Below are positions 7,028 through 56,895 of a stretch of DNA of 64,000 nt, in pieces. The first letter of the stretch is position 1; each line of letters begins with the position of its first letter. This DNA comes from Mytilus galloprovincialis (taxonomy: Eukaryota; Mollusca; Bivalvia; Mytilida; Mytilidae). The stretch covers positions 87,878,664 through 87,942,663 of the forward strand of contig NC_134844.1 in NCBI RefSeq assembly GCF_965363235.1, in the 5' to 3' direction. The notes under the pieces were generated by a model. The model was given only the letters and a program-made list of their open reading frames with translations. It made no database searches and had not been told where the DNA came from. A program made the position numbers and the translations under genes.

Positions 7028-8694
7028 CTAATCAGTATTAATGATGGCATTGCACATTGGACACGTTTCTTTAATGTACGACCACTTTTTCAAACATGAT
7101 TCGTGAAAGAAATGATTACAGGGAGTAATCTTGGCTGATGTCATATCACGAAGGCAGATGGCACAGACATCGTTGAAAACAAGTAGCTGTTCTTGTGTTG
7201 CATTTGGTAGAAATGACAGTCTATGAACTGCAGTTCGACGCCTTTGAAATTCGTTCCATCCGTTGGTTACTCGCTCATAAGTAGTGTAAACAAGAATGGC
7301 TAGTATAATACAACTAAACCAGCTCCATTGAATCGTGGTTATATTCCACGTGAGAAAGCATATTTGAAGAAGTCCAAACCCTATATGCACTATTCCGATG
7401 GCAGCACGAATGCCATACATTATTTCATCTAAATGTTCAATTGGTTCCGATTTAAAGCTATCTAAAACCAACAAGAGGTAAACTGACAGAGACCCTACTG
7501 AATCAATGCACACAGATATCCAGGATGAAGTAGCTACAAGAAACCATATTATCCCTAAATCAAATCCAATTTCATAAAATTTCATAACCACCCAAATTGG
7601 ACATATTATCAATGCAATGATAATTGTTACCGCTTTGCATGTCTTTGTAATTCCACCTCCCGATGCTCCAAGTTCCAGCAAAAACGAATCAACAATCTTG
7701 TGTACTTCTTCTAGAACAGTACTAGCAACAAGAAAAATGCCAAAACACATCATCATACCATGAGATTTTACATCACTGTGAAATGACTGGATTGCTAAGA
7801 TACCCAAGACAAAGGCAGGTGTTAAGAGCTCCGAGGTATTAATTCCGTACTTACGCCCACGTAGAAACCAAATAGTTATTTTCGGAAAAATAAAACAGAA
7901 GTGAGTAATTATTGTTATAAAGGCAACCGTTCCTATATTGGTCGTACACATTATGGTGATTGTTGTCATAAAAATAGTCCCAGCTTGGATAATGTTATTG
8001 CTGTATAACAATATTGGGATAGAAATTGTCAACACAATTGCATAAGGAAGGAGAACGTAAACAATTCTGTTTTTCATTATGCTCACATAATCTTGTTGGA
8101 TTTCAGTTATTCTATTTTTTAGCAAACACAGTACTCGTTCTTTATCAATTTTACCCATAACAGAAAAAATAATAAGGTTAATAACAAAATACTGTGTGTT
8201 CGGCCAGTAAATCCTGTAGTATATTTGCAGTAAAATTAGATAAATACTCATGTTTATGTTAAATAAGTGATACGTCAAAATGATTAAAGCAACATGATAC
8301 AAACTGACCCAAACATGATTAAGAAATTCCGGTGCGAATACGCCAGTCATTGTATCACCTAAGATATACACTACTTTTAAACAAATTCCAATTATCGCTA
8401 GTCTTCTGGGAAAATACACGCACAATTTTGATATCAAACTCATCATTTTTAAGCAAGTAGCAATGGACAAAAACGCCATTCCAAGGAGGTAATACAACAG
8501 TATTTGCGGTGATTCCTTCGTCATTGTCAAAAACGTTTGATATTTTGCTGTCAATCTAGTAAGGGTGTTCCATATGTGGTTTTCCGAAGAAGCAGGCCAC
8601 ATCGATATTATGAAAAGAAAGCAAACCAAACTCTTGTATATTTTTCCGAGTTGTTCTTTGGTCAGCAGAAGTAAAAAGACAGCAATTGCCAAAT
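7028..8694 (-). CDS. RING-H2 multi-pass membrane E3 ligase, RNF139/RNF145 (TRC8)-like; 5' part missing
   Basis: One open exon of about 555 residues. Most of it is hydrophobic segments, consistent with a polytopic ER-type membrane protein. It ends in a RING-H2 finger (residues ~510-547) with all eight ligands: CAIC, then C-N-H, FF-H, ES-C and CPMC. The ITPCNHFFHESCLKKW stretch is very close to the TRC8/RNF139 and RNF145 RING. In that family the membrane part senses sterols and the RING transfers ubiquitin. No ATG opens the frame. A good acceptor (pyrimidines then TAG, exon from 8694) suggests an upstream first exon, but a dispersed repeat starts immediately 5' (from about 8730), so the 5' end may have been lost. 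Known members are ~660-690 residues, so 100 or more N-terminal residues are absent. A broken copy lies at 55351-56895. Whether this copy is expressed cannot be told from sequence. Confidence 0.75.
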
Positions 8695-8729
8695 CTACAA
8701 AAGTGAAATATACTAAAGCTATAAAACCA

Positions 8730-8885
8730 GTTTCAATCCACCATTTTCTACATAAGAAAATGCCTGTACCAAGACAGGAACATAACAGTTGTTATCCATT
8801 CGTTTGATGTGTTTGAACTATTGATTTTGCCATTTTATTTGGGACTTTCCTTTTTGAATTTTCCTCGGAGTTCAGAATTTTTGTG
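8730..8885 (+). repeat. Dispersed repeat R3, short copy
   Basis: Contains the R3 landmarks: CCACCATTTTCTACA, the CTGTACCAAGACAGGA palindrome-like core, CCATTCGTTTGATGTGTTT and TTTTCCTCGGAGTTC. Same family as 22030-22900, 28540-28760 and the complement at 39730-40450. It abuts the 5' end of the RING exon. Confidence 0.6.
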
Positions 8886-15540: not shown

Positions 15541-16212
15541 AATTTCCTTTTTCTTTTCCGTCGTAGCCGTTGTCATGCTCTTCGCGGCACAAGCCATGAC
15601 CAATATAAGTATCAGGTAAAAACCGCAGTGTAACAAAATATATATATTCATTCCTCATCCTATGAAGTTTTTAAAACATCTAATTTTACCACATACAAAA
15701 AAGAGATACATGTGGCAAAGTCAATAAAATGCTGTTTCTTAGAACAATATTTTTCAGACATGTCGGATCTCATGTTTACATGTTGTTATCTTTTTGAAGA
15801 CATAATAAAACTAGAAGATCCGGTTTGAGGACAATGTCATAAATTTACATAATTAGATTATTGTACGACATTACATTGATATTATAAGCACGTAATTTGC
15901 TACACATTTTTTTGATACACAACATGTTTTTGTATGCATTTGTGATACATAATACATTGAACATTGATATGTTTGTACTGAAAGACTTGTTTGTACTAGT
16001 ATGACATTTTTTAACATTGACATTGTGAAATTTCTCTTCTTAGTATGTGGTCGAATTTTTTTTTGTATTATATAATCTTTAAATTAACGGATTTGGTTTT
16101 GTTTTTGTTATCTAGGTATGACGTTCATGAACCAAATGGAGACATTGACCGCAATAGTTTGTATGCAGAGCTGCAGAATAAGATCGGATTTCCCAATTAT
16201 TACACTATATAA
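15541..16212 (+). CDS. Possible short secreted peptide gene or relic exons upstream of the 16271 gene
   Basis: A hydrophobic exon near 15541-15615 encodes FFFSVVAVVMLFAAQAMTNI, signal-peptide-like. Its counterpart at 63700-63768 differs mostly by conservative changes and by a gap that keeps frame, hinting at coding constraint. A possible second exon follows a TCTAG acceptor at 16116 and reads YDVHEPNGDIDRNSLYAEL to a stop at 16210. Joined through the CAG/GTAAAA donor at 15615, the frame is open and slightly EF-hand-like. Doubts: no ATG precedes the hydrophobic stretch (first ATG 15575). The donor position shared with the 63.7 kb copy would give another frame. The second exon also overlaps the TATA region of the next gene, and its counterpart at about 50400-50530 is not open. 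Confidence 0.3.
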
Positions 16213-16273
16213 TAAAATAGATTCGAATTAAATTATCAGTTTAACTTTCTAGCGAAAACTACACAGTAATATG
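16206..16273 (+). promoter_or_regulatory. Core promoter of the glycine-rich/EF-hand gene
   Basis: CACTATATAA (TATATAA at 16206-16212) lies about 60 bp before the ATG. It is followed by ATTCGAATTAAATT and, just before the start, ACTACACAGTAAT. The broken copy at 50524-50622 keeps CACTATATAG, ATTCGATTTAAATTA and ACTACACAGTAAA. The truncated copy at 23774 keeps TATATAA 53-59 bp before its ATG. Conservation across copies supports a TATA-driven promoter with a short 5' leader. Confidence 0.6.
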
Positions 16274-19200
16274 GTAGGTATTTTTTACATGATGAAGTTA
16301 TACATTGTTACACATTGCCATCGCGTTGTCAGTTAATTTTTCAGATTAATTTTGACTGACGAGACTGAATGTCTTTTTTGGTATCTTTTGTCTTTTTTGT
16401 ACATTGTCGATTGTTTTTTGGTTATTCTATGTAAGTTAATGTTGATAAAATAAATAGTTTGACACATTTATGATGAAGTAAAATCCAGAAAAGAGGCTAC
16501 AAATGGACAGATGAAACGGCTGATAAAAACATAGAATTTTCCAGAGTACAACATGTCTAATACAGGTATTTGTGTGTTAGTTTTGTCTCGTGTTCTAATT
16601 TAACAGCATCAATTTTGGGAAAATTTATCATACATGTAAAGAGCATGAACTGAAAACAAAAACACATCATTTTGCAACAATTTTATACACATCTAAACAT
16701 CAACTTAAAACCTATTTAAAAATACATTGATTATTTCCTACTTTTCAAAAATCTGTTAGTAAAGTATCTGTGTTGGGTAAAACGAGGCAGTTTACTAATT
16801 TACTAATACCTGTTGTCAATTATGTCAAATTGATTATTTAGTAAAAGAGTTCTAAAGAATGAAAAATGTATCATAAGTTACAAAGTGTACTATTAACCTA
16901 AAACGATATATATGGGGTCAATAAATTCCATATAAGGCGAGATCGATTGCGATGGATCAAAGAGGCCTTATCTAACGTAATAAACTCAACTGCAAACAAA
17001 GCGGTAGAAAAAAATTACCATATCACAATTAGTGGGTAATTAATTTTGTATTATTTAAATGTTCAACTTGTTGCCTTTTGTTGGCTGTTGTTCGTGTTTT
17101 TCTTTGTCAATTGTATTCTCCAATTTATTTATATTGTAGTCCTGTAGTGTTGAGTTGTCATCTTAATGTTATATTTCACATGACTAAAAAATGGGAGGTT
17201 TGGCATGCCACAAAACCAGGTTCAACCCGCCATTTTTTTCTTTAAAAATGTCCTGTACCAAGTCAGTAATATGGACATTGTTATATTATAGTTCGTTTCT
17301 GTATGTGTTACATTTTAACGTTGCGTCGTTTGTTTTCTCTTATTTTTGAGTGTAAATTCAAATTGCGATAATGAGTGTCACGGTACTTGTCTATCCCAAA
17401 TTCATGTATTTGGGTTTGATGTTATATTTGTTATTCTCGTGGAATTTTGTCTGATGCTTGGTCCGTTTCTGTGTGTGTTACATTGTAGTTTTGTGTCGTT
17501 GTTCTCCTCTGATATTTAATGCGTTTCCCTCAGTTTTAGTTTGTTACCCCGATTTTGTTTTTTGTCCATAGATTTATGAGTTTGAACATCGGTATACTAC
17601 TGTTGCCGTTATTGTATTTGTATTTTATTTGTATTTTGTTTTGTTTTTTTTATGGCTGCTTTCTATTCGTTGTGATATTATTTGTTTTCTAGTTATGATA
17701 AAAATGATTTTTTTTAGTGGGTATATATTTAGCTGGTATATAATTTGTCTGAAGCAGTACGATCTTTATGAACGTATTGTAGCAGCTACATGCATTTTAG
17801 TTCAAAATGATAACCTTTTAACGACAATACACTCTGTATGATTTAAGTTTATAGAACATTTTTTTGATATGTTTAAGCACTTATCTAGCATTAATGCGAG
17901 AGAAAGGAAACAATAATTTAACAATTATTTCGGTATAATTCAGGTTTGCCTACTGCAAGCATATATAGGATTTTTAGGATCAGCAATTCATATTATGAAT
18001 GATATAAAGTTGGGTGATTGTCTATTATACTACACCTATGTTGATCTTATATCAACAAAAAAGATGTTTGGTAAAAGTCGATAAGAAACGCCATCGGATC
18101 TTTCATGTTATGCCTATAATGATTGAATGAGTGAATTGATATTGTCATATCATTTGAAATATTTATATGATTGCAATTAAAATGTTTCACTGAGTGTATT
18201 ATTAAAAAATGGAGAAAACACAACTAATCTTGCTTTTGTCAAACAATGATCATAGATATTTTTTTTAGGACTTGAAACTGAGTTGCGTCCTGGTAGTATT
18301 AGCTTTTTGTTCAAGTCTTACTATAGCTCAAAGAAAGACCACAATTACTGGGGATTTGACTAAGGACAAAGATTTAACAAGAGTAGATCTAGGAATTTCC
18401 CATCAACGGGGAAAATGGGGTTTTAACGGATCAGGCTTCGGTACCTCTAGAGGACACAGAGGAGGAAGTTTGGGGATATCGCACAAACGTAAAAACTTTG
18501 AATTCGGAGGATCAGTTTTCGGGGATAATCAGGGAAATCGAGGTGCAAAATTAGGCTTCAAATGGAAGTTTGGAAAAAGATCTACAGCATGGGTTTGTAT
18601 ATTTTCTTTTTACTTATGTTATTAGTTACATGTACACGGTGTTATAGTTACCTAATACGAGATATATGGGGTCAGTAAATTCCATATGGGGTGAGAGCGA
18701 AATATTACCCCTAATATCTCGTATATCCCGACTATCTACACATGTGGTATTTTTACTAGAACCCTGTCAAAGTGATCAAGTCTTCAATATTTTGTATTAA
18801 GATCCTATACTTCCATTTGGCTATACAAAAAAAAATGCCACCTATTACAACTGTTTAGCTTTAAATTTATTATATAAATTTATTTCAATCGTGTATTACA
18901 TGTATTTATTTCTTCGTCTGTTGAATCTTTTCAGATTTCTTTTTGTTTTGTTTTGAAAGGGAAGCTAGTATCTCCGTTATGCCAACAGTATTTCCAAAAC
19001 TTCTACTGTTTATAACCTTTTATTCTGCAGTTTATATATATATTTTGCCGTTGTTACAGTTTCGTGAAAATAGATACGCTATGGTATAAATGCAAGTCAT
19101 TGGTAAACACTTTTAATTCACATATATCATGTTAATGAATGATTTACCTACATGTATGATTACCTGAGATATGTTCAAATACATCTGTAAGACGCCATAT

Positions 19201-20695
19201 TTGTATTCTGTGTCATGTAATACCAAGTAAACCTACCAATAACTTCCTTTATAATTAATACACATTATAATTTATTATTACATTCATTGTAACATGTGTA
19301 ATGTTGATGTTAAACACAAACATCAGATTGCAATTTAAACAGATATATATCGTAGTCTTATATTGCTATACTTATAAGAATACTTGTCTAGCTATTGTTT
19401 TTATATTTTTCTTAGAACGGTGAACATTTTGAAGTTCGAGTTATCGTAAACCATTGTGACTTCAATGTTTATGATATAAATGAAGACAGTGTTATCACAG
19501 TTGAAGAGATTTATGAATTATTTCCTCAAAGAACTGATGCACATAGGTTATTCAAGGCGCTGGATTCCACATCAGGTTAGTTTAGCTCTTTTATGATTTT
19601 GCAGGGGAGGGGGAGGTAAGTTACTATTGTTTATAAATGTCAACATCTTTATCAAATTATGTATATGTTATACCATTAATCTATAGTTTTGAAACCATTC
19701 AATTTTTTCAATCCGCATTTTTGCGCCTGTCCCAAGTCAGGAGCCTCTGGCCTTTGTTAGTCTTGTATTTTTTTATTTTAGTTTCTTGTGTACAATTTGG
19801 AAATTAGTATGGCGTTCATTATCACTGGACTAGTATATATTTGTTTAGGGGCCAGCTGAGGGACGCCTCCGGGTGCGGGATTTTCTCGCTACATTGAAGA
19901 CCTGTTGGTGACCCTCTGCTGTTGTTTTTTATTTGGTCGGGGTGTTGTCTCTTTGACACATTCCCCATTTCCATTCTCAATTTTAATTCCCCTCATCATA
20001 ATAAAAGAATTACATTCAACAACTGCATATATATTCAAGGACAGAGAGCACATTAGTATCATAATGATATTGTTTTCACTAGTCTAATATATTTTTGTAG
20101 TGTGTATTTCATGTATTGGCTTGTAAGATATTAGTCTTCCACTAAACATCTTAAATATTTTCAATACACGTAAGGACATTCCGAGGACAATTTTTATTTT
20201 CTTTAACATTAGAATGTAGTATGTGTACCTATGATATTGAACACTAACAGTCTTTACAGATTATTACCAGTCTATTTTAACATGACTATTATAACTGGGT
20301 TTGTTATCTATGCTTTTCTTTTAATAGTCTCATAATAATAGATGTGTTGATACGTTTAATGAAATCTTGTTTACGTTAAAAAGGTATGAATGGATTTTAT
20401 AATTATAAATATTATGATTGTCAATGATTCAAATATCCAGTGAAAATTGCCACGTATGAGACTATCCCCCATACATTAAAGTAGCCTGTAAAAAGTCCCG
20501 ATGTGTCAATATGACATAACTGAGATAACTAATGACCTTAATTATAAAAGAAATTACAAAAAAAAAAAAAACAGTTATTTTGATTTTAAGAATGTTTCTA
20601 AATTTTCAGTTGATGGTAAAGTGACCATTGACGAATTCAAGATGATGGCTCCACAAGTTATAAAGAAATGTGGATATATCAAGTATACGTATTAA
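16271..20695 (+). CDS. Secreted glycine-rich / EF-hand precursor, candidate antimicrobial type
   Basis: Exons 16271-16273, 18269-18592, 19416-19575 and 20610-20695 give one frame of 190 residues. Exon 1 is only the ATG, followed by a GTAGGT donor. Exon 2 encodes a signal peptide (MDLKLSCVLVVLAFCSSLTIA, likely cut after A21) and a glycine-rich, basic region with two and a half ~28-residue repeats: LGISHQR..FNGSGFGTSRGHRG, then LGISHKR..FGGSVFGDNQGNRG, then LGFKWKFGKR. KR at 104-105 is a furin-type site. Exons 3-4 encode an EF-hand pair: DINEDSVITVEE (129-140) fits the 12-residue loop, and STSVDGKVTIDE (160-171) is weaker at positions 1 and 3. The layout parallels mytimycin, a mussel antifungal precursor with a C-terminal EF-hand, but the mature part differs. 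Attacin-like beta-strand repeats are a weak by-eye comparison. Antimicrobial function is inference. AATAAA signals follow at 20721. Copies at 23.8 and 50.6 kb are broken. Confidence 0.8.
17060..17620 (+). repeat. Dispersed repeat R1, longest copy, in intron 1
   Basis: Runs from TTGTTGGCTGTTGTTCG to ATCGGTATACTACTGTTGCC. Contains GGCATGCCACAAAACCAGG, TTCAACCCGCCATTTTTTTC and two rounds of the GTTCGTTTCTGT/GTGTGTTACATT segment, suggesting an internal duplication. Confidence 0.7.
18649..18737. repeat. Short imperfect hairpin repeat in intron 2
   Basis: CTAATACGAGATATA on the left and TAATATCTCGTATATC on the right form inverted ends around ~50 bases. A related single arm (GATATATATGGGGTCAATAAAT) lies at about 16905-16955 in intron 1. 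Probably a tiny MITE-like element. Confidence 0.45.
19730..19990 (+). repeat. Dispersed repeat R2 in intron 3
   Basis: CCTGTCCCAAGTCAGGAGCC, GGGGCCAGCTGAGGGACGCC, GAAGACCTGTTGGTGACCCT and the ending TTTGACACATTCCCCATTTC. Related to 9225-9310, and by its middle part to the start of R3 at about 22020. Confidence 0.65.
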
Positions 20696-20760
20696 TGATG
20701 GTTCTTGTTAAATAGATATCAATAAAGCGATAGTCATAGTCATACATGTAAATAAAAGAT

Positions 20761-22020
20761 TCCTTTTTTATAATTTATTATAAAGCCAATGACATATGTC
20801 GTACAGGCATTGTATTTTTGTATACATTTACAAAGAAAATTTTATTTGTGTACACTTGTATTGGGATGGATAATTTTTAATAAAGTTTTACTACATGATA
20901 CTACCAGTTATTTATTATACATGTTATAAGCGGTATGTATTTTGCTCGTTCTTAATCTTTACAGTATGTCAAATACAAATAAGGAGATGTGGTATGATTG
21001 CCAATGATACAAATATACAGTGAATAACGACATGAATAAGACTAACTAATACATTATAGAGTGCTGTAAAAGGTCTCGACATGAAAATATATATAACAGC
21101 TGATATAACTAACGGCCTCAATAATAACAAAACAATTTACGAATAACAAACATGACAGACATAAAACGAATGCAACGACTGCAGGCTTCTTACTTGGAAC
21201 AGGCACATAGGGAATATTGCATTGAAACTGCTTTAACTTTGAACTGTGGAAATACAGCACAACATAAAACAGAACCTTTGAAAATTAGTTCAAAAGTACT
21301 TAAGTCATTAGATCGATACAAAACATCTAACAAAATTACAGACCGGACTTGTCTTGAAAGTGAACTGAGATTTGACTACAATTTTGATGCGAACATCTGG
21401 AAAATTTCACCGCTGAATATTTTTGGTACTTTGTCTTTACATTACTCAGCTAAGTATAACGTGGTCATCACGAGGAATGAAGTTTACACGCAATAACCCT
21501 TTCTGATTTCTAAGGGATTTTTTTGAAGAACCTTCATCTGGAAAACCATACATCAACAATTGTACAAGTCTAAGATCTGAATTTTATTTTCTCATAACAA
21601 ACTCTGCTGACAGTGTCTCATTACTTTTGATGAGGAAAAGTTTGGCTGTTAGGCCCTAAACAATGCTGAGTGGCAATATCTTTGATTTATGTTTGATATA
21701 AAAAAATCAAGTGATGATACGATCAAATGTGAAAATTGTCTTTGAAAATCATAGATACAAAGCACACGAACAGTTATACTTTCATAAAACGTACTAAGTA
21801 CCTGACAGTGGAATATAGACATTAAGTAGAATCAAACTAAATATTTTAACATCATCGTAAAATTAACAAAAATAGTTGTTTAACTGCAAAATTGTTGTCA
21901 GTTCCTTTTTAGCAAAGCGTGGAGACATGATACATATTCTTATCAGATTATGTATCTTATCCTAGAACGTTTACATCCATAGAAGTTTACAATATTAAAA
22001 AAGTACATTATTGTTTAATT
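20761..22020. other. Mostly non-coding; one unassigned open frame
   Basis: 20980-21160 carries a repeat with TTGCCAATGATACAAATAT, also seen near 11860, 20420 and 59770. An open frame at 21152-21496 (114 codons, MTDIKRMQRLQASYLEQAH...) has an ATG and a varied composition, but I recognise no domain, and no splice or promoter evidence supports it. Nothing else seen. Confidence 0.35.
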
Positions 22021-23773: not shown

Positions 23774-24106
23774 TATATAAATAGACCTATTAGAGGAAAC
23801 ATAATACAGACAAATTGAGAAAGCATACGAACATGGTAGGCATTCTAATCATAATTGTATATGTTTTATGGAAGACGATTCAGCAAACTAGTATCACAAT
23901 ATACTTGTTAAATGTCTAAAATATTGCATTGAAAAATACATTTCTTTGGTACATCAAAAGTACATCGAGGTGGAAGTCTTGGGGTGTCAAACACACGTAC
24001 AAATGATCTGAAATTAGGTTTGTCAGTTTTTGGTGAACGAGGTGCCCTTGTGGGTTTTAAGTGGAACTCTAGAAGAAAGAAAACACTCCCTGCTCCGTTA
24101 TTTTAA
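23774..24106 (+). pseudogene. Truncated copy of the glycine-rich/EF-hand gene
   Basis: TATATAA at 23774-23780, then ATG at 23833-23835 followed at once by GTAGGC, as in the complete gene. After only ~100 bases, 23942-24106 encodes FFGTSKVHRGGSLGVSNTRT and onward to FGERGALVGFKWNSRRKKTL and a stop. This aligns with the repeat region of the complete gene (FGTSRGHRGGSLGISHKR, GAKLGFKWKFGKR). The signal-peptide part of exon 2 and most of intron 1 are missing, and a TGA lies just upstream in frame at 23930. No EF-hand exons were found downstream. Confidence 0.7.
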
Positions 24107-34397: not shown

Positions 34398-37300
34398 TCA
34401 TTCCATGGTTTCTGTATGACTTCGGGGCAGTTGGGGAGTCCCGTCGGATGGTAATAACGTCTGAAGTGCTGTCCAGAATCGTTTGAAATATTCCAAAAAA
34501 TTATGAGATGACCCCGGGTATATGTTAATCCAAACATTACGATTCATGGTAAAACCAGGGATCTTTGATATCTGAATTGCAGCTTCAACAGTGGACTGTG
34601 TAAGTTTGTTTTCTTCACTCCCTACAATAGACCTTTTATTATTGTTGAGGTTGAAGCTTTTTATATTTTTGTTTACATGTATGTCCTGAAAATTTAACTA
34701 TTCCGTTGGCTATATCTTAATGGATACTAGTAGTCTTTTCTATTTTAAGCATATAACTAGTTTTGTAAAGTGTAATATTTCATGTGTTGTTTTTGAACAT
34801 TTTTTACATTAATTTCATTTAATTTATTAGTCACCTTATGTAAATTTAGATGTGGGAATAATAGTTTGCCAATTGAGACGGGAAGGTGGCACAATATACA
34901 AAGAGCTGATAGATTGTGTCACCTTTGCGACTCAGCTGACATCGGTGACAAATACCATTATATCATTTATATATTTTTTTAAAGATGAAAGAAACAAATA
35001 CTTACCACAATATTGTAATTATAATGTAAATAGTATTGAATTCAATCAAGTAATCAAGTATATTCAACACGAAATTGTGTTGAACTGGAGAAACTCTGTA
35101 GACTTTGAACGTCTATCCTCTTGGTTAAAAAACAACTGTATGTGTATATATATATACATTCTTAGACACTTATATATATATATAAATATATGTCTTTTGT
35201 CCAATATTAACTATATATTATTTGTTAGTCATGTATATCACACATGCTATATTCAATATATATTTGTTATCATTGTCTTATTATCTTCTCTGTAACTATG
35301 TATATGGTTTATGAGAAAAAGATAATTGATTTCATTCATTCATTGTTGACCGTATGGTGACATATAGTTGCTAAAATCTACGTCATTCGTTCCCTGGTTG
35401 ATAGTTGTTTCACTTGCAATCATACCACATCTCTTTATTTTGTATTGTGTATTTAACATGTTTAAGTATACATTTATTTTAAGTTTAGTTCATATGTTAG
35501 GATTCCCAATTGTTATTATGTAGCTTCTCATATATTTAATTAACTTGAATGTTCATACGTTTGTTTGGGGCATCTGCGTGATAGTTAATCAAGAAGTATA
35601 TGTATGCATCAAACGTGGCCTTTAATATTTGTTAATACTTTGATAGAAAAACAAATTTCTGGTAGTTTCAGTTACCTGCATCTAATAATATCTTCTGTGA
35701 GAACCTGCTTTGTTGAAGAGATTGGTTTCTGAGTGTGTGATTTATGAAATGAAAATCGCCATCTGTTAAAGTTGTATTATTTAGCGGCCACCATAATGAC
35801 GGGCTTTGGCAAGCGGCTAATCCAAAAATTGATGATCGTGTCCATGCAGCATAACATGACATCAAGCCACCAAGAGAATACCCCATCACTCCTGTATTGG
35901 GTTGATCTATCAAGATACGGTCATTCGTAAGTTCTCGTACTTTAGGGTAAACCCTGTTTATGAGGAAGTTAAGTAAACGGTCACCAGATCCTTCGATGTT
36001 TTCACGTTTTCCGCATTTTTCTTTCATCAGCCTGTACATTAATAAGAACATTATTACATTAAAACTTCAATCGAATGAATCAAATACATCATGTGACAAA
36101 AACTTTGCAATAGAAAATAAAATTAAGGAATATTATACAAATACGACTGAATCTGCAAACATTAGATCACGGACGAAATGGGCTGAAGACGGTGAAAAGT
36201 CAACTAAATACTTTTCAATTTGGAAAAGAAAAATGGGCAAATTAGGGCAACGTGTAAAACAGAAAACGGTGAGTATAAATGTGACATTGATTCTATCATT
36301 AATGAACAAGTAAAATGTTATACTAAATATTTGCCACAGAAGCTGGGATAAAACATCGGGGAGGGAGGGGACATAATAAATAAGGTAAGCATAGAAGACA
36401 AAGAAATTTTAGATAGAGATAGATATAAATATTTGCAAAGTAGAAAGAAATACTTAAATTACTTAAACAGAAGACAGAACAAATCATTTGGCGAAGATGG
36501 TATAGTTTCATAATTTTATATTTTATACGTAATAAAAGACGATTTCTTTACTTTACTACAAGAAATCTTTAATGATACGTTATTGAGTATTCTCAACATA
36601 AGGGGGTCTTAACCTTATTACATAAAGGAAGAGAAAGGGGGAAAAAATCGGAGACCACTTTCTTTACTAAATTGTGGTTATAGAATTATTGCAAAGATTT
36701 TATCTGAAAGGCTAAAAATAGTATTACCCAAATTATTCATACAGATCAGAAAGGGTTTGTTAAAGAAAGAAATATAAGCGAGGTTAACCGAATGTTTCAG
36801 GACATTATAGAATATATTGACAATGAAGATGAAGAAGGATTTATTTTATTTCTGGATCAACAAAAAGCATTTGATAGGGTTGCATGGGATTGAATTGATT
36901 TTGTACTGGAGAATTCTGAATTGGGGGGGGGGGGGGAATATAGAGCGAGGATCAAAATGCTATTATTTTATGCTTCGTGTATTTAAACCAATGGATTTGT
37001 ATCAAGATACTTTTCGATTACTCGCTCAGCTAGGCAAGGATGTCCAATAGCGCCTCTTTTGTATAAAGGCAACAGTAGTATACCGCTGTTCAATAGTCAT
37101 AAATCGATTAAGCGAAAACAAATCTGGGTTACAAACTTAAACCGAGGGCTATCAACTATCAGAGGAAAACAACGGAATAACAAAAATAATGAACAGCAAC
37201 AAAAACAAACGCCAACATACATAGAAACCGACTATTAGATAGCAACTGCCATATTCCTGACTTGGTACAGGACATTTTAAGAAAAAAAAATGGTGGGTTG

Positions 37301-43300: not shown

Positions 43301-46300
43301 ATATACACAAAATACTTTACTTTTAAGAATTAGATCGTAGTTTCTTTTGAACGGATTGTCGGACAGTTTTTTAATGTATAAAATGTAGAGCTCGTTGAGA
43401 GGAACATTTTATACACTAAATGTATGCAGCAATCTTTTTTTGTTTTCTTAATATGTAAGCTTGAAATTGCAGCGTAAATTTTGTGGCACTCGGTGACCTT
43501 TGACTTTGGGTGCAAATAAAAGGTCACATGAACTTAAGATTATTGATGAAGGTCCCATGTCTCCAAGACTTCCGATTCTCGAAATGAATATTTTTCAAAA
43601 ATTATGTATAATTTTTCAAGGGAAATAACTCTTATAAGGGTTGATAACAAATAATTGTTTATGTTTATTAACATTATCATCTGTTCCTCGATATAGGAAG
43701 ATGTGTTGTGAGTGCCAATGAGACAACTCTCCATCCAAATAACAATTTTAAAAAAGTAAACCAATATATGTCAATGTACGGCCTTCAACACGGAGCCTTG
43801 GCTCACATTGAACAACAAGCTATAAAGGGTCCCAAAATTACTAGTGTAAAACCATTCAAACGGGAAAACCAACGGTCTAATCTATATAAAATTTAAAAAA
43901 ACGAGAAACAAGAAACACGTATAAATTACATAAACAAACGACAACGACTGTACATCAGATTCCTGACTTAGGACAGGCGCAAACATTTGCAGCGGGATAA
44001 AACGTTTTAATGGATCCAAACAATTTCGCGCTTTTTCTGAAACAATGGCATAACATCACAACATAGAAAAACACACGATAAAATATCAATTGGCAGGCTT
44101 AACTCAATCAAAAAACGTACATTAATACAATATGAACGAATAAATTTGATCTGCGATATCTGAATGCAAATGCACAGTTAATAAAATATTAGGAACAACT
44201 ATTCAAGGCAAAAAAGCAAACAAACAAGTCCAAACAAAGCCATGTCAAGACACCACTGCGAAATATTTAACCCTTCGAAAATATTTACTTTAGAAAAAAA
44301 AACGGTTTTAAAAAAATACAGGTAAATCTTGAAGTTGATGAGATTTACCTTTTGTCCAAATAAGGTCAGGATAACTTCAAAAACAACGAGGGGAGGGAGC
44401 CATGTCGAAAAAAACATTAAAAGGGACATAACTGCTGACGGGGATGATGAAATCTTTCACAGCCTCATCTGGTAATACTTCATGATGAGGTTTATACATT
44501 TTAGATGGTCCATATTTGGTCCTGATAACTTCAATAGAAACGAGAGGAGGGCATGTCAAAAAAATGTTGGAAGAAAAACAGAAAAAAACAGACGAAAGCC
44601 AATAAGGTCTTTCCAGACCTTAATACTAATAATACTAATAATCAGAAAAAATACAGTAAGGTCTTTCCCTTTTTGAAAAGGAAAAACCTTAATAATTAAT
44701 AATCAGAAGAAATACAGTAAGGTCTTTCCCTTTGGGAAAAGGAAAGACCTTAATAAGAACATTATTACAGATAACCTTTACCCAGGAATACTTTTAATAT
44801 ATTTGGTAATCAAATCTAACCAGCATGTAATATTCTTAAGCCGATTGTTATGTCAAACATAGTACTCCAATATGACAAATTTTCTTTTTTAAAGATTCGA
44901 AAGTGTTCACAATTCACATTAAAATAACATAATAGTAGCCGTTGTTAAATACAATGAATTTTAATCTAAGTCAATAAACGGAGAACGATTACACTGTTTG
45001 ATAATGTATATATGCTAACATTGCTTAGTGCATTTTAAATCTAATTTATGATGTGCTTACTTCTTTCTAAATGCTATTTAGTGGTCGACTGCTTTGTAGT
45101 GCTGGTTTTTTCTTAGTGTGCGTTTAACTTTACCTCGTTTGGTTATCAATATGTGTGCAGAAGTTAAGGTACCAGAAAAATCGTTGAATCTTAACAGATT
45201 ATGTGCCTATATCAAGTCAGGTGACTGATCGTATTTCCTTGGATTAACTATTTTTCATTGAACAAGACACTATAATAAATACCTTCGATGTTCATCATCA
45301 GTCAAATTACTTGTCAAACAGTTGTCGCATGAATTGGTAAAGTTTCCCTTTATACATGTCATGACGGTTCCTGGAGTAGGTGTTAGTAAATCAACGCGTT
45401 CATGTTCTGGTTGATAATCTCCGTACCCAATGATAATAAACTCTTTAATTGTTCCAGATTCAGCTAATATTTTATCAACAAAAGAGGTGAGTAACTCAGA
45501 ATAACTACCCGGATATAAATCAAAAACAAGCAAATTAGGATACTTCTTAAAGGTGTTTTCGTTAAAACTTGGTGGCAAATACAGATAAATCTGGCGTTCC
45601 TTCCCGATTTCTGGAGAATTAATAGTGAAATTGGATGTACGTCCCGCGTTTGAGTAGAACCACGGAAATACCTCAAACAAAGGCTTTTCGTCGAAATATG
45701 AAGAAGACATTGATACGGGTAAATCAACAATGAAATTGCCACCAATCATATTAGTTCTGTCTGCAATCCAAATTCGATATTCAAGTTTCTTTGTTATGTT
45801 TATATCATTTGAACAGTCTTTGCATCGGAAGCCGTCATCTGATGATGTGAATTTCAAGTTTACTTCCCATGTATCAGTCAAAATTTTTCTCATTTTCATT
45901 CCTGTCGTCCAGTTTAAACATAAGCCACTTCCTCTTATGTATAAAACTTTGTTTTCAATTTCCTGAATTAAAAAATGTATATGACTACATTTTATAAATA
46001 AGTTTCATCAAATATATCTTTGAAATTTCATATCTTTATACTTACATTGTAAGATGTGCGAAAGAGTAAAATCAAAGCATCAAACCATAGCCTATAATTT
46101 AACAGCAAAATTATGAGAAGATATTTGTTTTGAAAAATGGACAAATTATCACTGCAGTTCATAATGTTGTCACTGTATCACAATCGTCACTAATTACAGT
46201 TCTCGTGAGCTACAGCTAATTTGGATGGTATGTTGCAAAATGAGAATTTATAAACAATTTTTTGCAAATGTGCGATTCTGTAAGAATGGTAAGGAATACT

Positions 46301-50535: not shown

Positions 50536-50622
50536 AAGATTCGATTTAAATTAAATGTTAAATTTATATGAATTTTTTTAATAAATTATATGCTTCTCAG
50601 TGATTAACTACACAGTAAAATG
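50524..50622 (+). promoter_or_regulatory. Promoter of the broken glycine-rich/EF-hand copy
   Basis: CACTATATAG at 50521-50530, ATTCGATTTAAATTA and ACTACACAGTAAA immediately before the ATG. About 30 bases longer than the promoter at 16206-16273. Confidence 0.5.
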
Positions 50623-50764
50623 GTAGGTATTTGAGTTCATAGTTTTGATTTCTGTTTGAAGTTTTATTTTGGTCATACAAATTGTTCAGAATCGATACAT
50701 GATCGGCTGTTACATTTTTGATTTTGACCGTTTCTGATTAAGTTTAATCCAGAAAATTGATGCA

Positions 50765-50990
50765 TGTACTTCATTCGTAATAGTAGAAGAGAGGTTTGAA
50801 ATATACCAGGGGGACATTAAAACTCATAAGTCGAAAATAAACTGACAACGCCATGGCTAAAAAAGGAAAAGACAAACAGACAAACAATAGTACACAAAAC
50901 ACAACACAGAAAACTCAAGACTAAGCGACACGATCCCTACCAAAAACTGGGTGTGATCTAAGGTACTCCGGAAGGGTAGCTATTGAACGA
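50765..50990. repeat. Dispersed repeat R5
   Basis: AGGGGGACATTAAAACTCAT, AAACTGACAACGCCATGGC, AGACAAACAGACAAACAATA and GTACTCCGGAAGGGTAGC. Lies in intron 1 of the broken gene copy. Confidence 0.6.
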
Positions 50991-51054
50991 CGACAATAAA
51001 AATCGGTACACAAATTCATTAGCTTTTCGTTTGAAGTTTTGTTGGGTGAAAGCT

Positions 51055-51235
51055 AATTATAGATACCAAGCTCAAACATGTGTATGCCAGCCGCATAAGA
51101 CACATCAGTGATGCTCGATTTAAAAAAACAAAAGTTTAAAATCACGAATACAACACGAAGTGGAAGAGCATTGAGGACTCAAACTTCCGAGAGGTTTTGC
51201 CAAACAGCTTAGATGTTCTATTGCAGGGGTAGAAA
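51055..51235 (-). mobile_element. Degenerate retrozyme-like repeat
   Basis: The minus strand carries AGCTGTTTGGCAAAACC, TGAGTCCTCAATGCTCTTCC and CGAGCATCACTGATGTGTCT. The hammerhead has lost GACGAAAC and the cleavage triplet. Confidence 0.55.
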
Positions 51236-52836
51236 ATAGTTAGTTAAATGAGAAATAATGTTAGAATATTTGAACATTGCATATTTTTGACACACTTCGA
51301 TTTATTGAGTTTAAACTTTTATGAGTGAAATATGAGTGTAAAAAACAGCGATACATAGTAAACGAACAAATTTATATTTTGAACCATGTGAAGTTGTGAT
51401 CACTTGTCTATTAATCGAGACCTATTATGACCTTTTGATTTGCAAACCGAGATTGTGGATAAATTTGTATACGAATAGTGACGTAATTTGGTTGATTACG
51501 TGACACCAATACATCGATCTCTGAAATAAATTTAAACAAACATACTATTTTATTTAAATGCAGTAATGATAAGAGTGTTGGTTTCTAGTCAGTCAAACAA
51601 TGTATATCAATATTTATCTTTTTAGGACATTACACTGAGTTGCTTCTTTGTATTATCAGCATTCTGTACTTTTGCAAAAAATGAGAAAACCACCTTAACT
51701 GGAAGTTTGACGACAAATGAAGATAGTGGACTAAGAGTAGATCTTGGAATTACCCATACACAAAAAAGAGTTAGGCGGATCGGTTTATGGCAATAGTTGG
51801 GGAAATGCAGGTGTAAAACTAGGCCTCAAAGGGAAGTTTCGAAAGAGATCTGCAAGATGGGTTGTATTTGTATTTTTAACTTATCTTTCATTTAAATCCA
51901 CTTTTCTCATTCATTTGGTTTTTTAAAAGATTTTTTTTTAAATCTTAAAAATGTTGATTATTTCCCTTTATATCTTACAATAACTTTAGTTTGATACTTG
52001 ATTCGACAATACATATCTATTAATGACATCTATATTGTTTATGCTGTTTTTTTGTGGTTGGTTTGCCAGGCATACATACAAGAATTGATATCCAGGTTTA
52101 ACATGTTTAAAGAATGATTATTAAAGCGCCACAAAAATATAAAATAAATGTGTTACAGTTCCAGTCATAAAGCTTCGTGAGCTTATAGCTTTGCTTTAAT
52201 TTTACTATTTCAATGATTAACTACTTCTTCACTAGTTGACGTTAATATGAAATTTAATTCAGTGTATTTGATGTGTTATGAAAACAATTGTTATTATCTG
52301 GTTAAATTTTTTTTTCCTATCGTTCAGTTGATGGTAAAGTGACCATTGAATAATTCAAATTGATGGCTCCCCAAGTTATAAAAACATGTGGATATTACAA
52401 TTTAACTATGCATTTAGTAATGGTTCTTACAAAATCAAGAGTGGTACAAGAAGATACCATATGAATTATTTTATACATAATTCTTAAATAAATAGCATAC
52501 GTCGAAGAATCAAGTTTTTTTCTTTATATTTCTATTCGATTATATTTATACAAAGTAGGTAAAATGATATTTGCATCCCAGCATTAAACATCTTAAATTA
52601 AATGAATAATGATGTAGTACTGTATTGTTCACAATCAAGTGCAAGTCACGTGGCAATTGTCATGCCTTCTCAAGATCCATGTCAGATCATCCAACCCCGA
52701 CTACTTCCTATCATTATTTAAGGAACATTCGAGCACTATGAACTTAAATGCATTCAACATGGTTTTCGTGATTTAACTTAACCCGGAACGATCGTAATAG
52801 CAGAATTAAAAAAGCCAAGGATTATAATATTCTGAA

Positions 52837-55195: not shown

Positions 55196-55350
55196 TGATG
55201 TCATCTTAAATGTAATGGTACATTTACATTATATAAAACAAACTGTTTTCAAGTTATAAATTCATTGTTTCCCTTCAAGTATCCAAATGCACTTGCATGA
55301 TTTGTCTTTGCACATTTAACAAAGTTCTAAACAACCTTTTTAACTAAACA

Positions 55351-56895
55351 ATTAGTATTAATTATTGCATTGCACATTGGACAGGTTTCTTTTAAGTATG
55401 ACCATTTTTGTAAACATGATTCGTGGAAGTAGTGATTACACGGCGTAATCATAGCAGACGTCATATTGCGAAGGCAGATGGCATAAGCATCGTTTAAAAG
55501 ATGTAACTGTTCTTGTGTTGCATTTGGCAGGAATGAAAGTCTGTAAACTGCAGTTCGACGCCTTTGAAATTCGTTCCATCCGTTGGTTACTCGCTCATAA
55601 CTAATGTAAACAAGAATAGCTAATATAATACAACTAAACCAGCTCCATTGAATCGTGGTTATATTCCACGTGAGAAAGCATATTTGAAGAAGTCCAAACC
55701 CTATATGCACTATTCCGATTGCCGCACGGACGCCATACATTATTTCATCCAACTTTTCAATTGGTTCTGATTTAAAGCTATCTATTACCAACAAGAGGTA
55801 AACTGACAGAGACCCTACTGACTCAATGCACACTGATATCCAGGATGCAGAAGCTACAAGAAACCATAGTATCCCTAAATCAAATCCAATTTTATAAAAT
55901 TTCATAACCACCCAAATTGGGCATATTATTAATACAATGATAATTGTTACCGCTTTGCATGTCTTTATAATGCCGCCTCCCGATACTCCAAGTTCTATCA
56001 AAAACGAATCAACGATCGTGTGTACTTCTTCTAGAACAGTACCAGCAACAAGAAAAATTTCAAAACACATCATCATGATGATCATACCATGAAATTTTAC
56101 ATCACTGTGAAATGACTGGATTGCAAATAGGATAGCCAAGACAAAGGCAGGCGTTAAGAGGTCCGAGGTATTAACTCCGTAGTTACGCCCACGTAGAAAC
56201 CAAATCGCTGTTTTTGGAAAAAATAAAACAGAAGTGAGTAATCATTGTTATAAAGGCAATCGTTCCTATATTGGTCGTACACATTATGGTAATTGTTGTC
56301 ATAAAAATAGTCCCAGCTTGGATAATGTTATTGCTGTATAACAATATTGGGATAGAAATTGTCAACACAATTGCATAAGGAAGGAGAACGTAAACAATTC
56401 TGTTTTTCATTATGCTCGCATAATCTTGTTGGATTTCAGTTATTCTATTTTTTAGCAAACACAGTACTCGTTCTTTATCAAATTTACCCATAACAGAATA
56501 TATAATAAGGTTAATAACAAAATATTGTGTGTTCGGCCAGTATATCCTGTAGGATATTTGAAGTAAAATTAGATAAATACTCATGTTTATGTTAAATAAG
56601 TGATACGTTAAAATTATTAAAGCAACATGATACAAACTGACCCAAACATGATTAAGAAATTCCGCTGCAAATACGCCAGTCATTGTATCACCTAAGACAG
56701 AAACTACTTTAAAACAAATTCCAATTATCACTAGTCTTCTGGGAAAATACACGCACAATTTTAATAGATATCAAACTCATCACTTTTAAGCCAATAGCAA
56801 TGGTTAAAAACGTAATTCCGAGGAGATAATACAACAGTATTTGCGATGAATCCTTCGTCATTGTGAATAACGTTTGATATTTTGGTGCCAATCTT
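55351..56895 (-). pseudogene. RING-H2 membrane protein pseudogene (copy of 7028-8694)
   Basis: Very similar to the segment A gene, but split across frames near 56160-56200 and again near 56760, and without the N-terminal part: similarity stops at 56895, where the sequence jumps to the equivalent of 9325. The first RING cysteine is Tyr (DAYAIC instead of DVCAIC), so zinc binding would be impaired even if the frames were intact. The C-terminus runs ~7 residues longer (TNCLVKKVV). A small in-frame insertion (MIIM) sits near 56075. Stretches such as the 56240-56500 block are almost unchanged from segment A, so the duplication is young or has been homogenised. Confidence 0.85.

Follow-up and report, generated by a model that had tools for sequence, protein, structure and literature searches.

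In a 64,000-nucleotide (nt) stretch of the Mytilus galloprovincialis genome (NCBI RefSeq assembly GCF_965363235.1, contig NC_134844.1, forward strand, positions 87,878,664 to 87,942,663; hereafter the window, in whose own coordinates all positions are given) we identified a four-exon gene that joins a glycine-rich, cysteine-free peptide to a pair of EF-hands. The predicted product combines a tail of the mytimycin type, as judged by published description, and an effector that lacks cysteine and belongs neither to the mytimycins nor to the myticalins. As far as can be read from its sequence, it is probably a defence-peptide precursor of a new type.

Gene model and predicted product

The four exons lie on the + strand and splice to 573 nt, encoding 190 residues and a stop codon, with GT/AG sites at all three introns and intron phases of 0, 0 and 1 (from exon lengths). 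The coding part of exon 1 is the ATG alone (16271..16273, donor GTAGGT), preceded by a TATA-like motif (16206..16211, +) 65 nt upstream. Exon 2 (18269..18592) encodes the signal peptide, the basic glycine-rich repeats and a GKR site, exon 3 (19416..19575) the first EF-hand with its loop DINEDSVITVEE, and exon 4 (20610..20695) the second, degenerate EF-hand and the stop codon, the loop STSVDGKVTIDE being completed across the exon 3/4 junction. AATAAA polyadenylation-type signals follow on the same strand, the first two (20721..20756) starting at 20721 and 20751 and a third at 20879. An in-frame TAG stands immediately 5′ of exon 2 and there is no methionine near the start of the exon; therefore exon 2 needs an upstream ATG. 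The GC content of exon 2 is 41%, a value reached by 0.3% of 324-nt windows, in a window of 31% GC and no N. An earlier note on this DNA had proposed four exons joined in frame to give 190 residues, and we recovered exactly those exon ends. Moreover, the signal peptide, the cysteine-free basic glycine-rich repeats, the GKR site and the EF-hand pair that it described are all recognizable in the predicted product. The locus is almost certainly a real gene, and it is very probable that all four exons belong to a single transcript.

Residues 1-21 are signal-peptide-like, with TIA before the presumed cut (by eye). Cleavage after TIA and at GKR (residues 103-105; 18572..18580, +), a dibasic site with an amidation-type glycine, would give a mature peptide of residues 22-102 (18329..18571, +). 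Residues 22-104 have an isoelectric point (pI) of 11.1 and no cysteine, and the 84 residues from 22 to 105 include 18 G, 18 K+R and 6 D+E. The two full glycine-rich units share 14 of 28 residues with an alignment score above all 5000 shuffles, and the 27-residue self-offset of the repeats is reached by 5 of 5000 shuffles. Three queries against NCBIfam gave no match, and the closest PDB sequence match to the exon 2 product had an E-value (E) of 0.09. Reading through the exon 2 donor (18593-18622, +) adds 10 more residues and then meets a stop; a tail-less secreted form is therefore possible via intron retention.

The tail is acidic (residues 105-190, pI 5.2; residues 106-190, 14 D+E and 9 K+R). 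Searched alone, it matched Pfam EF-hand_6 in two stretches (E 8.4e-6, 25.5 bits, cut-off 25), whereas the full protein reached 22.6 bits, below that cut-off; three further EF-hand models listed were under their cut-offs for both the tail and the full protein. The pair model EF-hand_7 spans the exon 3/4 junction at a sub-threshold 20.5 bits (cut-off 30). Loop 1, DINEDSVITVEE, has D, N and D at positions 1, 3 and 5 and E at 12, with S instead of G at position 6 (by eye). What we take to be the usual chelating positions are kept, glycine 6 excepted, and this loop is likely to bind calcium. Loop 2, STSVDGKVTIDE, is judged degenerate by eye, having S at positions 1 and 3 and no first aspartate. Among solved sequences, those closest to the tail are neuronal calcium sensor/KChIP EF-hand proteins, the best being 3dd4 (whole-sequence E 1.1e-5), with no individual aligned stretch significant (best 12.3 bits). 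These proteins are cytosolic and have four EF-hands, unlike the new, predicted secreted precursor. An alignment to KChIP4 over the exon 3/4 junction was not counted as evidence for the junction, because it reached 9.2 bits by itself. Exons 3 and 4 contain no methionine before loop 1, and therefore a separate EF-hand gene would require an extra exon in intron 2.

Partial copies and past selection

Searching the window with the protein (tblastn) recovered two additional loci that the earlier note had not reported, with best E-values of 4e-14 and 1.8e-10, the next match having E 0.58. Copy 2 (23833..24085, +) consists of an exon-1-like ATGGTAGG at 23833 and an exon-2 fragment at 23945-24085; neither a signal peptide nor an EF part was found in it. 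Copy 3 (50620..52407, +) is a pseudogene with exon 1 at 50620, exon 2 at 51626-51860 and exon 4 at 52324-52407 (tblastn E 1.2e-8). Its exon 2 lacks the middle repeat and is broken in frame between 51757 and 51759, and its exon 4 contains an internal stop. At the nucleotide level the gene and copy 3 are identical at 26 of 27 nt around exon 1 and match over exon 1 with its 5′ flank (E 1.4e-6), over exon 2 (E 1.6e-18 and 1.5e-12) and over 73 nt of exon 4 at 90% (E 2e-23). There are three occurrences of ATGGTAGG in the window, all on the + strand, one before each of the three loci. A TATA-like motif also lies 59 nt (copy 2) and 96 nt (copy 3) 5′ of the respective ATG.

Exons 1, 2 and 4 stand in order in copy 3; glycine-rich and EF-hand exons were thus already adjacent, with the same orientation, when the duplication took place. 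This order is an argument for the glycine-rich and EF-hand parts forming one gene, copy 3 being silent on exon 3. The earlier note had raised the case of EF-hand exons belonging to a separate gene. Checked at the level of DNA, that case is opposed in part by the position of exon 4 behind exons 1 and 2 in copy 3 and by the sub-threshold EF-hand_7 match across the junction; two neighbouring genes may instead have been duplicated jointly.

Copy 2 also bears on whether the glycine-rich frame has been a functional one. It was compared with the gene over three ungapped blocks, 38 codons in all, which were picked by eye from a protein-likeness alignment, a mild bias. Within these, copy 2 and exon 2 differ at 36 bases, distributed as 9, 6 and 21 over codon positions 1, 2 and 3 (p 0.0018). 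Moreover, 25 of the 38 residues are identical, a value that none of 10,000 random placements reached (mean 16, maximum 24). The third-position excess and the retention of residues indicate that selection has acted on the glycine-rich frame as a functioning protein; past purifying selection on this exon is thus supported by the sequence. The ratio of nonsynonymous to synonymous change (dN/dS) between the gene and copy 2 was 0.17 over 43 codons, but this alignment was chosen by protein likeness and the ratio is hence not relied on. Positive selection on the mature region was considered and rejected, dN/dS against copy 3 being 0.52 over 72 exon-2 codons, with no sign of it. Identity between the gene and copy 3 is higher in exon 4 (62/69 nt) than in exon 2 (158/216 nt; Fisher p 0.003); however, this likeness carries no weight because the codon pattern shows no selection (2084 of 10,000 random trials).

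At the presumed processing site the gene has GKR, copy 3 RKR and copy 2 RRKK, a basic motif in each case. We consider cleavage at KR more likely than not. Several features of the copies count against the precursor proposed below. The amidation glycine is not conserved in copies 2 and 3, copy 2 is itself a fragment, and no counterpart of exon 3 was found by tblastn in copy 3 or elsewhere in the window. Furthermore, in the C-terminal block of exon 2 the differences from copy 3 are 9, 6 and 6 over the three codon positions, and the residue identity was reached by 1965 of 10,000 random trials. Copy 3 therefore yields no evidence of selection, since there is no third-position excess, as is expected of a decayed copy.

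Known peptide families and predicted fold

Mytimycins are described as having 10 invariant cysteines in the mature peptide, then a dibasic site and an anionic C-terminal extension with an EF-hand, and as a duplicated family with in-frame stops in 18 of 106 variants (PMC8004829). One mytimycin has a precursor of 152 residues, of which 54 are mature, and two of the genes have three exons and two introns (PMC3210125). The new gene resembles them in its cationic mature part, its dibasic site and its anionic EF-hand C-terminal extension, and the likeness to mytimycin drawn in the earlier note agrees with the published descriptions (PMC8004829). The tails were compared by those descriptions, and the likeness is one of design, which is no proof of common descent: the tail may be the mytimycin module, as the earlier note proposed, or may have been gained independently. 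In contrast to the 10 cysteines of mytimycin there are none in residues 22-104, and the new gene has four coding exons and 190 residues rather than three exons and 152. Mytimycin promoter motif 1, which is common but not defining, had no match with up to three mismatches in the 64 kb.

Myticalins, which lack cysteine, come from tripartite precursors that have a dibasic site, in many cases a glycine for amidation, and an anionic extension of low complexity (PMC12294457, PMC5577615). The new product shares with them a cysteine-free cationic mature part, a dibasic site with a possible amidation glycine, and an anionic extension. However, myticalin genes have three exons, the second of which opens with the ATG, and a second intron of phase 1 (PMC5577615), whereas the new gene has an ATG-only coding exon and phases of 0, 0 and 1. 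Mature myticalins are 17-38 residues long and Pro/Arg-rich (subfamilies A and B), the new predicted peptide being far longer, and the available passages mention no EF-hand in the myticalin extension, whereas the new gene has an EF-hand tail. Among the matches listed (titles, abstract starts and passages, with subscription papers and preprints little covered), no precursor consisting of a glycine-rich peptide and an EF-hand tail was described.

Insect attacins offer a third comparison. A model of one of them shows an antiparallel sheet resembling outer-membrane barrels, and this attacin damaged such membranes (PMC10690985); the barrel form of attacins is regarded as unproven in a 2026 review (PMC12940664). 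Like them, the new peptide is cysteine-free and glycine-rich. Five to six antiparallel strands with a likeness to outer-membrane barrels are predicted for both, for the new peptide at low confidence; attacins, at 150-250 residues, are larger (PMC12940664). No attacin profile was among the Pfam matches listed at E up to 10, a search in which the HMMER filters remove the majority of matches weaker than about 0.1. To our knowledge, attacins have no EF-hand tail.

Modelled alone with AlphaFold2, residues 22-105 form six strands, the best of five models having a mean predicted local distance difference test score (pLDDT) of 65, with 30 of 84 residues at 70-90; a meander order of the strands is assumed. 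Foldseek ranks 1-4 against the PDB (E 0.05-0.12; query template modelling score 0.42-0.50) are all barrels of trimeric autotransporters, namely Hia and AtaA. Pfam YadA_anchor, a barrel of the same kind, matched the mature region below its cut-off (E 0.01) and none of eight controls (one reversed, seven shuffled). The strands, the barrel matches and YadA_anchor agree, weakly. Set against them, three of the five models have a mean pLDDT below 50, and supplying the paralogues as an alignment gave 46. The PDB list below rank 4 is a mixture of unrelated folds, and E 0.001 was reached by none of the 478 PDB matches and none of the 801 viral models. YadA_anchor gave a sub-threshold E of 0.13 on the whole protein and no match in either short paralogue piece. 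Amphipathic beta-strands, considered as support for membrane insertion, were not above shuffles, 942 of 5000 of which reached the observed amphipathicity. The YadA_anchor match had also prompted the idea of a horizontal origin. This was dropped: two sets of pattern matches, 108 and 23 in number, yielded no confirmed bacterial or viral relative of exon 2 (a single-protein query, reaching close relatives only), there was no NCBIfam match, and the best PDB sequence E was 0.09.

Proposed function, alternatives and neighbouring genes

We propose that signal peptidase cuts after residue 21, that KR105 is the cleavage site of a proprotein convertase, and that trimming then leaves an 81-residue basic peptide, residues 22-102, perhaps amidated through Gly103 and possibly with a pyroglutamate at its start. 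The acidic EF-hand tail would keep the basic peptide soluble and harmless in transit or granule storage, and calcium in loop 1 would help. We give an even chance to a secreted prepropeptide of this form, in which a cationic effector is made together with the anionic tail and separated from it by a cut at KR, and regard an antimicrobial role for the putative product as equally balanced. It may work like an attacin, as suggested by the weak fold hints together with the barrel-like model of attacin; in the absence of an attacin profile match, we do not propose that it is one. Attacin-like action remains tentative, and we lean against it. The fullest form of the proposal is more doubtful still: a first glycine-rich, attacin-like antimicrobial peptide of bivalves, with an origin separate from that of insect attacins, that inserts a beta-sheet into bacterial outer membranes and is held inactive by a pro-domain of the mytimycin kind with calcium bound in its EF-hand.

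A 2025 paper stated that no glycine-rich antimicrobial peptide was known from mussels or other bivalves (PMC12294457), and a 2021 paper that it was unknown what the EF-hand of mytimycin precursors means (PMC8004829, Discussion). Another EF-hand-tailed precursor, this one free of cysteine, would provide a concrete gene for studying both the swapping of tails between unrelated effectors and the role of a calcium-binding pro-domain in a defence peptide. If the fullest form of the proposal is true, EF-hand tails would be an exchangeable intramolecular guardian module of mussel defence precursors.

The alternative that survives best, though we think it unlikely, is that the product is secreted as a structural protein or as a matrix protein of shell or byssus, stays uncut, binds calcium and mineral or matrix, and is not antimicrobial. 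The glycine-rich composition fits matrix proteins. Moreover, secreted EF-hand shell proteins are known in molluscs, for example SMP5 of abalone (PMC10741955). However, such a protein does not account well for the basic motif that all three copies have where the two domains meet, for repeats that are strongly basic, or for duplicated, decaying copies within 64 kb, as described for mussel antimicrobial families.

It is improbable that the locus is a non-expressed relic or a set of wrongly joined exons, for example exon 2 read through as a 118-residue frame without an EF tail, with exons 3 and 4 belonging to a neighbour. Two of the three copies are broken, the exon 2 frame does continue for 10 codons beyond the donor before a stop, and no copy of exon 3 supports its place. 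Nevertheless, all four exons are open with GT/AG sites, between a TATA-like motif and polyadenylation-type signals, and copy 3 too has exon 4 behind exon 2. Most improbable is a peptide hormone or neuropeptide-like precursor, with GKR, a classic amidation site with its preceding glycine, yielding an amidated messenger and the EF-hand tail aiding granule sorting: the signal peptide (by eye) and a possible internal cut at KRK 74-76 would suit it, but the predicted product has 81 residues, the copies lack the amidation glycine, and Pfam matched only EF-hand models and the sub-threshold YadA_anchor.

No Rfam family reached its gathering threshold in the window. An open, EF-hand-like frame at 16117-16212 (+; YDVHEPNGDID...), ending about 60 nt before the ATG, was considered as the terminal exon of an EF-hand gene lying upstream and rejected as unproven, its likeness to exon 4 being reached by 613 of 5000 shuffles and its counterpart before copy 3 not being open (by eye). 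On the - strand lie an esterase-family exon at 35671-36066 (PF00756, E 3.2e-8) and, at 45273-46004, a frame that is esterase-like by eye and has no Pfam match. A 587-residue stop-to-stop frame at 7031-8791 (-), apparently intronless, encodes a multi-pass membrane RING ubiquitin ligase of the TRC8 type (Pfam TRC8_N, E 3.8e-23, and RING). Its second copy, spread over two frames at 55330-56770 (-), is probably a pseudogene; the first frame matches TRC8_N and RING, and the second, without a Pfam match, resembles the first TRC8 copy by eye. This pseudogene lies 3 kb beyond copy 3, and therefore the two may share one old segmental duplication.

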